Part shown: positions 38,851-40,574 of the stretch, in pieces
Position numbering within the stretch: position 1 is the first letter of the stretch
Layout: each line of letters opens with the position of its first letter
Source: Sulfurimonas hongkongensis
GTDB taxonomy: Bacteria; Campylobacterota; Campylobacteria; Campylobacterales; Sulfurimonadaceae
Length of the DNA: 64,000 bases
Direction of reading: 5' to 3'
Assembly (NCBI RefSeq): GCF_000445475.1
Contig: NZ_AUPZ01000005.1
Location: forward strand, 62,001 to 126,000
Program-made: the position numbers and the translations under genes
The notes under the pieces: model-generated
Told to the model about the DNA's origin: nothing
Seen by the model: the letters and a program-made list of their open reading frames with translations, nothing else
Database searches by the model: none

Positions 38851-39240
38851 ATGTTTCAAAATATAGATGTAGCAAAACTCATCATTAGGCTAAGCCTTGG
38901 TATCATGATGCTCTTTCATGGAGTAGATAAGATAAGAAATGGTATAGGCGGAGTTAAGCACCTAGTCACAACGGCAGGATTGCCTGAGTTTTTGGCGTAT
39001 GGAGTCTATGTTGGCGAGGTTTTAATGCCTCTTTTTATCATTCTAGGGCTTTATGCAAGAGTTGCCTCAGTTATTTTAGGCTTAACTATGGTATTTGCCA
39101 TATTTTTAGCTTATGGAGGAGCTTTCTTAGCCCTAACAAAACACGGTGCACCTGCGATGGAACTTCCATTTTTGTATCTTGTCTTATCTCTAGGTGTCTT
39201 TTTTCTAGGTTCTGGGAGATATGCTCTAAACTCTAAATAA
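38851..39240 (+). CDS. DoxX family membrane protein
   Basis: 129 residues with four hydrophobic helices. IRLSLGIMMLFHGVDKIRNGIGG, YGVYVGEVLMPLFIILGLYARVASVIL and FLYLVLSLGVFFLGSGRYAL are the usual DoxX blocks. DoxX proteins are small quinone-interacting or redox-linked membrane proteins of varied roles. The next transcription unit, the small RNA candidate, begins directly after the stop. Confidence 0.8.
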   Translation: MFQNIDVAKLIIRLSLGIMMLFHGVDKIRNGIGGVKHLVTTAGLPEFLAYGVYVGEVLMPLFIILGLYARVASVILGLTMVFAIFLAYGGAFLALTKHGAPAMELPFLYLVLSLGVFFLGSGRYALNSK

Positions 39241-39243
39241 GTT

Positions 39244-39272
39244 TTGACAAATTATTTATACTTTGATATAAT
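39244..39272 (+). promoter_or_regulatory. Consensus sigma-70-type promoter of the small RNA candidate
   Basis: TTGACA (39244-39249), 17 nt, TATAAT (39267-39272): a perfect match to both hexamers with ideal spacing. None of the other promoters I examined in this window has such a complete -35. Confidence 0.75.
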
Positions 39273-39278
39273 TTTTGT

Positions 39279-39368
39279 GTTGAGATGTATGAACCTTTTA
39301 TATCTGCCTAACTAGCAGGTATCTAAAAGGATGAGGCTAAGACTTACGAGTCTTGGCCTTTTTTTTTG
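39279..39368 (+). ncRNA. Candidate small RNA with two hairpins
   Basis: The predicted transcript of about 90 nt runs from the consensus promoter to a T-run. Hairpin 1 pairs CCTTTT + ATATCTGC with GCAGGTAT + AAAAGG (about 39294-39330, 2-nt bulge). Hairpin 2 is the terminator. No ORF of useful size fits inside. It could be an independent sRNA or a terminated leader for the short peptide gene downstream. I do not recognise a known family. Confidence 0.6.
39331..39368 (+). terminator. Intrinsic terminator of the small RNA candidate
   Basis: AGGCTAAGAC and GTCTTGGCCT form a 10-bp stem (one G-T wobble) with loop TTACGA, followed by nine T. This is the best intrinsic terminator I found in the window. 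Confidence 0.75.
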
Positions 39369-39422
39369 CCAATTTTTTGGTAAGGCTAGGGTGAGAGTGG
39401 ACTTTTAGACTAAAGGTTCATT

Positions 39423-39485
39423 ATGTCTCACAAAACAATAGTAGTCTTTTTAATGTTGATGGTGTTTACGCCCTCTTTTCATTAG
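39423..39485 (+). CDS. Putative 20-residue hydrophobic peptide
   Basis: The ORF starts at ATG 39423 with AAAGG 6 nt upstream and ends at TAG. Residues 5-16 (TIVVFLMLMVFT) would span part of a membrane; the start is MSHK. The length and layout recall Ibs-type type I toxin peptides, and it lies 55 nt downstream of the small RNA terminator. A chance ORF of this size is quite possible. Confidence 0.3.
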   Translation: MSHKTIVVFLMLMVFTPSFH

Positions 39486-39933
39486 TCAAAACAGAGAGAT
39501 TAGTTACCCCTCTGGCTACTATTAAAATACTCTACTTTTAAATTAGCTTTATCCTTCAAATGAATTTTTCATCTTACTTTTTTAAAAAAGTAAGCAAAAA
39601 AGCTAAAATCCAAAGTGATAAGAAGACTAACTTACTTTGATAGCCTTGAATCATGGAACCGCAAACTTGTTCTGGGGATAAACTTCTTAAATGTAGATGC
39701 AAAGCCTTATCAGCCTCTAATAAGTTCGTGATTTTGCAGTTGTTAAACCTTACTTTCTCAAACTACACAAACACTTAAAAGCTTATGCGTCAGTTGCAAC
39801 ATTTTGGGAACCTCACAAAGTGAGGCTCGAAGCCGTTGCAAGAGTTTTTGTTTACTTTTTGCGAACAAAAAGTAAGAAGAAAGTATTAAATCAACTAAAT
39901 TACTAGATTCCAAATAAATTTTTTACAAAATCT
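39486..39933. other. Gene-free stretch with possible degenerate element
   Basis: No credible gene of normal length. From about 39570 to 39875 the sequence is bounded by ACTTTTTT/AAAAAAGT (39577-39592) and TTACTTTTTG..CAAAAAGTAA (39851-39873), both palindromic. Inside are CCTCA/TGAGG (39812-39825) and, on the minus strand, an ORF ending at 39574 whose last 26 codons (from ATG 39654) encode a hydrophobic, lysine-ended peptide. It looks like a degenerate dispersed element rather than a promoter region. Confidence 0.35.
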
Positions 39934-40491
39934 TTACGGATGTCTAACTTTTATAGTAGAGTTTAGGCTCCAACCTACAATAACCATAAGAACTACCACA
40001 ACTATAGCTGGTAAGATATCATAGGCGTGAGTTAGATAGGCTAGCCATAGTAAAATCGCTCCTAGTGGAGTTGGTACGCCTGTAAAATACTTATCTACTT
40101 CGCCTGCATCTGTATTTAAGTTAAAATGAACAAGTCTTCTAAGTCCGCTAATAACATAGTAGATGCTTACAGCTGAGGCAAAGAGAAGTGATATACTTGA
40201 GAGCGAAGTCGCATATACAGCTTGAAATAATAAGAACACTGGAACAAGCACAAAAGTTAAAAAGTCTGCAAAACTGTCAAGTTGAACCCCAAACTCATTT
40301 GAGAGTTTAAACTTTCTAGCAATCTTGCCATCAAAGATATCAAAAGCACCGCCAATCCATGCTAAGATGATGGCTAAAACAAAGTTGTTTTGAGTGATAA
40401 AGTAAGTAGCAAGAAGACCAGCAGTAATATTTACAAAGGTAAAAAGATTTGCAAGGTTGAAGTGAGAACGAGGATTGTACAAAAATTTCAT
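39934..40491 (-). CDS. pssA: CDP-diacylglycerol-serine O-phosphatidyltransferase
   Basis: Makes phosphatidylserine from CDP-diacylglycerol and serine in the inner membrane. The CDP-alcohol phosphotransferase motif is complete (FDIFDGKIARKFKLSNEFG, then QLDSFAD). About 185 residues from the ATG at 40491, chosen because AAGG lies 6 nt ahead and a TATAAT at 40520-40525 precedes it; the longer frame to TTG 40548 would start upstream of that promoter. Other CDP-alcohol enzymes (PgsA) share the motif, but the GLRRLVHFNLN segment fits PssA. Confidence 0.8.
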   Translation of the reverse strand: MKFLYNPRSHFNLANLFTFVNITAGLLATYFITQNNFVLAIILAWIGGAFDIFDGKIARKFKLSNEFGVQLDSFADFLTFVLVPVFLLFQAVYATSLSSISLLFASAVSIYYVISGLRRLVHFNLNTDAGEVDKYFTGVPTPLGAILLWLAYLTHAYDILPAIVVVVLMVIVGWSLNSTIKVRHP

Positions 40492-40519
40492 AAAGAGCCT
40501 TGAGCTAAATTTAGGTGTG

Positions 40520-40525
40520 ATTATA
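40520..40525 (-). promoter_or_regulatory. pssA -10 box
   Basis: TATAAT on the minus strand, about 28 nt from the ATG at 40491, followed by a leader carrying AAGG. Confidence 0.5.
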
Positions 40526-40574
40526 TCTCTAAAAATATTTTTAATCAAACTATCATGTACATTAAATCTTTTTT

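Follow-up and report, generated by a model that had tools for sequence, protein, structure and literature searches.

A previously unnamed two-part module of sulfur bacteria, probably a type I-like toxin-antitoxin system

The small RNA and the adjoining reading frame

The window, meaning the whole 64-kb stretch of Sulfurimonas hongkongensis DNA analysed here, carries between doxX and pssA an insertion that holds a small RNA gene and, on the same strand, a 20-codon hydrophobic ORF that starts 55 nt beyond the terminator of the RNA and is followed by a structured 3' end (Table 1). Past that terminator come first a G-rich leader and a Shine-Dalgarno sequence, then the ORF, and after it a hairpin with, last, a CUACUAUU tail. 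Together the two parts form a module of sulfur bacteria that has had no name so far.

Table 1. Features of the module and its surroundings (positions in the window)
Feature	Position	Strand	Remarks
Insertion	39241-39933	.	About 697 bp between doxX (38851-39240) and pssA (complement 39934-40548)
Sigma-70 promoter of the putative antitoxin RNA	39244-39272	+	-35 TTGACA and -10 TATAAT; -10 kept in homologues
Small RNA, predicted antitoxin	39279-39367	+	Start approximate, 6-7 nt past the -10; end is the T run
Segment A	39280-39299	+	Antisense to the Shine-Dalgarno/start-codon region of the putative toxin ORF; duplex in the window -21.0 kcal/mol
Hairpin 1	39300-39322	+	Kissing loop CTAACTA 39308-39314, hexamer TAACTA 39309-39314; every stem pair covaries
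Segment B	39322-39329	+	Antisense to the leader immediately 5' of the Shine-Dalgarno; B:B' pairing
Intrinsic terminator	39333-39367	+	12-pair stem and T9 (39359-39367); separates putative antitoxin from putative toxin
Small hairpin immediately 3' of the terminator	39368-39381	+	GCCAA-TTTT-TTGGT; covarying (helix 5)
G-rich leader of the putative toxin message	39379-39401	+	Conserved
Segment B'	39402-39409	+	Pairs with B; in-cis pairing with the Shine-Dalgarno also possible
Segment A'	39412-39431	+	Shine-Dalgarno AAAGG (39412-39416) through codon 3; predicted antitoxin target
20-codon ORF, hydrophobic peptide, putative toxin	39423-39485	+	MSHKTIVVFLMLMVFTPSFH; 20 codons in 44/44
Long-range helix, 5' half	39438-39447	+	AATAGTAGTC, codons 6-9; helix 6, 95.6% paired, compensatory changes
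3' hairpin of the putative toxin mRNA	39492-39514	+	Loop hexamer TAGTTA 39501-39506, kissing partner; helices 2 and 8
Long-range helix, 3' half	39514-39523	+	GGCTACTATT; helix 6

The promoter of the small RNA agrees with the consensus at 12/12 positions, TTGACA (39244-39249) and TATAAT (39267-39272) being separated by 17 nt, and a TG precedes the -10 element; the two boxes and their spacing had been read correctly from the sequence before. It is the sole site in the window that comes within one mismatch of the consensus, against 1.0 expected by chance, and it has no mismatch at all. This perfect -35 element is untypical of the small RNA family: TTGACA is present in only 7 of the 42 homologues, while the -10 element is matched at five or more of its six positions in 41 of them. 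The sequence-only reading held that the promoter should be very strong; it may be so, on the strength of a -35 box that is unconserved across the family.

The predicted RNA has a length of about 88-90 nt and folds, as hairpin 1 and the terminator hairpin, at -31.0 kcal/mol, against -17.5 +/- 2.9 kcal/mol in shuffled sequences (z -4.7). Folding thus bears out the first hairpin with its exposed 7-nt loop CUAACUA, followed by a terminator hairpin, that had been described from the sequence. The nine T of the terminator stand as well, but its stem has 12 pairs and not the 10 that had been counted. A terminator with at least eight T closes the small RNA in 42 of 42 units. It is mainly because the entire arrangement is conserved in more than 60 loci that we do not regard the feature as a product of chance, and a small RNA of about 90 nt with its own promoter, terminator and pairing loop is well supported at the level of sequence comparison. 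No family in Rfam scores as high as its gathering threshold in the window, in agreement with the earlier remark that no known family fits; sbrA (RF01489) was rejected, its 31.6 bits against a gathering score of 45 reflecting a general hairpin-plus-terminator resemblance. The search for tRNA and tmRNA gave none, and Pfam and NCBIfam hold no credible match for the 20-aa peptide.

The sequence-only reading had overlooked the adjoining ORF and hence the role of the small RNA, whose 5' segment is antisense to the start region of that ORF. Judged by its conservation the ORF is coding. Among 44 units compared, it has 20 codons in every one and no internal stop, and it begins with ATG, GTG or TTG in 43. 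Codons 5-18 are 95% hydrophobic, and the second codon position is the most constrained, with an entropy of 0.33 versus 0.86 and 0.91 for the others. Relative to non-synonymous differences, synonymous ones are about twice as frequent as they would be in the absence of selection; the synonymous count understates selection at the protein level, since RNA structure also drives part of the nucleotide conservation. The predicted product, a 20-aa membrane peptide, looks like a toxin and may be toxic.

The message itself is structured. A 10-pair long-range helix ties codons 6-9 to the 3' tail and encloses the remaining ORF and the 3' hairpin. The G-rich leader, of the GGGGUGGG(U/A)GGGA type, is kept in nearly all units including those of distant families; no partner or function was found for it, and a ribosome standby site is one idea. 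A G-quadruplex in this leader was considered and rejected, the four G-runs being unconserved.

Pairing between the small RNA and the message

Three complementarities link the small RNA to the message: segment A with the Shine-Dalgarno and start codon, segment B with the stretch just upstream, and a loop-loop contact with the 3' hairpin. Within the window, segment A finds a 10-nt perfect match at 39412-39421 and no second match as long as this. Across 42 loci the duplex of small RNA and cognate message has a mean of -26.8 kcal/mol, versus -16.4 kcal/mol for non-cognate combinations. When partners were re-dealt among the 42 units, the mean for A:A' weakened from -20.0 to -9.3 kcal/mol and that for B:B' from -10.8 to -8.1 kcal/mol, and 0 of 20000 permutations was as strong in either case; because the loci are related, such permutation and shuffle counts are not exact probabilities. 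The A and A' sequences are almost wholly different between many loci, with their complementarity retained.

The kissing helix behaves in the same manner. In an alignment of 36 sequences 97.2% of its cells are paired and two-sided compensatory changes occur at 4 of 6 positions, and the covariation score of the whole structure is 0.320, versus 0.174 after shuffling and no more than 0.098 when the structure was slid along the alignment. The pairs of hexamers found are UAACUA/UAGUUA, UGAUUA/UAAUCA, UUACUA/UAGUAA, UGAUGA/UCAUCA, UGACUA/UAGUCA, UAAUUA/UAAUUA, UGGCUA/UAGCCA, UGGUUA/UAACCA, UAGUUA/UAACUA and UAGCUA/UAGCUA; they were parsed automatically, except for a few rows, that of the window included, which were read by eye from the aligned units. 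The loop had been proposed earlier as a seed for target pairing. It does appear to pair, with one specific conserved partner, the loop of the 3' hairpin in the mRNA of the adjacent ORF.

Two further comparisons are less affected by the kinship of the loci. In 20 loci beyond the main set, mostly from other genera or families, A:A' averages -19.4 versus -10.5 kcal/mol with 0 of 20000 permutations as strong, and the loops are likewise complementary. Moreover, where one genome carries two or three units, these paralogues are orthogonal, each RNA scoring -18 to -27 with its own partner and -4 to -11 with the other. The predicted pairing is strongly supported by comparison and covariation. Exceptions are the locus L022, the only one of the 42 with a broken kissing pair, and L134, where segment A mismatches its own message.

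Some units are unusual in their layout. At L022 (around 1200-1587) two tandem RNA units precede one ORF, the broken kissing pair being that of the ORF-proximal unit, and the -10 element of the second promoter overlaps the small hairpin 3' of the first terminator. L128 and L134 lie about 1 kb apart on one contig and have near-identical putative toxin ORFs; one RNA of the two has a segment A that fails to match its own message and a loop that still matches.

Distribution and insertion

The unit, of about 280 nt, has a patchy spread over Sulfurimonas, further genera of its family and two more families of the order. In the search of related genomes, similarity between homologues extends beyond the terminator of the small RNA. 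Pattern searches found one to three copies in 25 of 100 genomes of the genus, a single match (L020) being due to chance. Most named records with the unit are Sulfurimonas; others are Sulfuricurvum and Campylobacterota MAGs. The sequence-only reading had named a covariance search in Campylobacterota as a check: a model of the ORF part gives one copy in the genome of the window and matches in 31 of 151 genomes of the family and in 9 of 249 genomes sampled across the phylum, the latter including two other families of the order. The order of the parts is unchanged in members from distant families.

Several groups of matches were discarded. Among the first BLAST matches, some covered the terminator only (3' of tsf, L008, L013) and others the promoter only (L009, L010, L012). 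Pattern matches in Bacillota, Bacteroidota and archaea (e.g. L047, L048, L057, L077-L080) have no 3' hairpin and were taken as chance. A phage or plasmid origin was also rejected, the unit being without match in phage or plasmid records; one IMG/VR contig carries it.

In 16 relatives that retain doxX and pssA together, the 3' ends of the two genes lie 5-190 bp apart, compared with about 697 bp in the window, where the insert consists of the module and a dispersed non-coding repeat. Pieces of this repeat (39540-39930, the downstream half of the insert) recur at 85-100% identity, clustered on three other contigs (C4, C9 and C13) that do not carry the toxin-antitoxin unit there. Copies of the unit elsewhere lie in unrelated gene contexts. 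In addition, partial units exist: L004 (match 1501-1619) has an intact-looking RNA and no ORF, L011 is decayed, and L053 and L065 have the ORF without a recognisable intact RNA upstream. In L002, L027 and L032 an ORF that by eye resembles a RelE/ParE-type toxin sits upstream of the unit, which suggests a clustering of toxin-antitoxin modules.

Proposed mechanism and comparison with known systems

We propose, with a probability of roughly 80%, that the locus is a type I-like toxin-antitoxin module in which the small RNA is the antitoxin, encoded upstream on the same strand and set off by its own terminator as in type III. The constitutive-looking promoter would produce an RNA of about 88 nt, mostly ending at the T9 terminator. 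Occasional read-through from the same promoter, followed by processing, would provide the toxin message, so that an excess of antitoxin would be built in. The RNA would recognise the message of the 20-aa peptide by kissing of CUAACUA with the UAGUUA loop of the 3' hairpin, and with segments A and B paired to the start region ribosomes would be unable to start, which would amount to repression in vivo. If the RNA disappeared, because of stress or because the locus is lost, translation of the more persistent folded message would set in and the membrane would be damaged by the peptide, a form of addiction.

The toxin mRNA probably arises by read-through of the terminator from the single upstream promoter; we favour this because the ORF has no conserved sigma-70 promoter ahead of it, no common -10 element being found across 42 leaders. 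Between terminator and B', 18 of these lack any TANNNT and only one matches TATAAT at 5 of 6 positions, and a search by eye for sigma-54 and sigma-28 promoters 5' of the ORF gave none. In L026 and L081 the leader ahead of B' is just GTGGGTGTGTTGGGTGGGA. Moreover, helix 5, between the terminator and the ORF, covaries, which fits transcription of that stretch. The same module could instead have a toxin promoter of its own, perhaps of an unrecognised kind, between the terminator and the ORF and need no read-through; T-rich tracts, a promoter feature in Campylobacterota, do precede the leader. The reviewed type I loci also transcribe toxin and antitoxin separately (PMC4147584). However, strong conservation of this G-rich leader does not extend to any -10 element and, given the counts above, we consider a separate promoter unlikely, if the most serious of the competing views.

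A read-through RNA could form the A and B pairings just as well in cis, and the 5' RNA might accordingly act as a leader or attenuator that folds onto the start region of its own transcript and controls the small peptide gene purely in cis. The two pairings, A:A' and B:B', are nested, and both form in cis when the 250-nt transcript is folded in full (-79.4 kcal/mol). This is improbable in our view, since the strong terminator of all 42 units would sever such a leader from its own gene, the leader would block itself permanently with no evident switch, and the orthogonal paralogues and the intact-looking solo RNA of L004 fit a diffusible RNA; the conserved terminator, these paralogues and solo copies are the reasons why we favour action in trans. 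Far less probable still is an ordinary trans-acting small RNA whose ctaacta loop serves as seed for many chromosomal targets, as was first supposed. The strong promoter, the terminator and the exposed loop would suit it, yet the loop covaries with a single partner, the 3' hairpin belonging to the adjoining ORF, segment A has its longest antisense match within the window at the start of that same ORF, and the unit, being sporadic, inserted, multi-copy and of shifting specificity, is unlike a core regulator.

Returning to the toxin-antitoxin interpretation, we lean, with clearly less assurance than for the module as such, towards an undescribed family organised as an operon in the manner of type III, with one promoter, an RNA antitoxin, a leaky terminator and a toxin, and acting by antisense pairing in the manner of type I. 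Its antitoxin would be the 5' portion of the toxin transcript, cut short by termination, so that stoichiometry would be set by one terminator, and specificity would be rewritten by paired changes in segment A and the kissing loop. Literature searches on type I systems in Sulfurimonas, Campylobacterota or Arcobacter brought up no such system, and a prior description in other type I surveys is possible. If the interpretation holds, it adds a type I-like family in environmental Campylobacterota, one invisible to annotation because its ORF has 20 codons and mostly starts with TTG. Its naturally covarying RNA pairs, of which there are more than 60 and which are orthogonal to one another wherever paralogues allow a comparison, would then be a resource for the evolution of antitoxin specificity and for orthogonal regulators.

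The module is not assigned to any named family, because it shares the mechanistic features of type I where they can be judged and none of the gene arrangements of the named type I systems considered, and because it has neither the repeats nor the nuclease of type III. As in type I, the putative toxin is a small hydrophobic peptide in 44 of 44 ORFs, and pairing of an RNA antitoxin with its mRNA is indicated by complementarity, covariation and orthogonal paralogues. The reviewed type I systems are described as having genes that overlap, converge or diverge (PMC4147584). This layout is usual but not strictly defining, and in all 42 aligned units the putative antitoxin lies upstream on the same strand.

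Several type I systems offer partial parallels. In par of pAD1 (RNA I/RNA II, Fst) a loop-loop contact is involved too, and Fst is longer than the 20-aa peptide and unrelated in sequence. There, as is proposed here, two separated antitoxin segments pair with the toxin message and block ribosome binding (PMC4147584). However, the par genes converge on a common terminator and have repeats in common, whereas the present genes are in tandem and their matching segments are inverted repeats. The Sib RNA is transcribed antisense to ibs, from the opposite strand, and overlaps it, unlike the upstream, same-strand and non-overlapping RNA gene found here; an opposite-strand antitoxin of this kind was rejected because the stretch 3' of the 3' hairpin is unconserved between loci. 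IbsC, a hydrophobic membrane peptide of 19 aa, is recognised by SibC, which has two target-recognition domains for this (PMC8309996). The present peptide is similar in size and hydrophobicity to Ibs-like peptides of 18-19 aa; it has no NCBIfam or Pfam match and is too short for a test of homology. In hok the toxin message is held inert and stable by folding, and AapA/IsoA of Helicobacter and Campylobacter is a type I system from the same phylum whose antitoxin, IsoA, is a cis-antisense RNA of the opposite strand. Message folding likewise keeps AapA3 mRNA inert and stable, and a long-distance intramolecular interaction controls translation (PMC6733600); the fold of the present message may act similarly. 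The gene arrangement of the present module is different, with no overlapping cis-antisense RNA and no Rfam match. TisB/IstR-1, ShoB/OhsC, Zor/Orz and DinQ/AgrB share non-overlapping genes and limited complementarity (PMC4147584), but their genes diverge and their pairing lies in the 5' UTR, off the start site, whereas the genes here are in tandem and the start site is covered.

The arrangement is closest to that of type III (ToxIN, CptIN, TenpIN), where antitoxin RNA, Rho-independent terminator and toxin gene also follow one another on one strand, under one promoter in type III and perhaps here too, no -10 element being conserved before the ORF. Unlike in type III, the RNA consists of one hairpin and a terminator without tandem repeats, the putative toxin is a 20-aa hydrophobic peptide and not an endoribonuclease of the ToxN fold, and it is to the message that the RNA shows complementarity, whereas type III RNA binds the protein. 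In type III the inter-gene Rho-independent terminator limits toxin synthesis (PMC5086642, PMC4147584). Such a terminator was described as unique to type III (PMC5086642), and the module, if our reading is right, would blur the boundary between types I and III.
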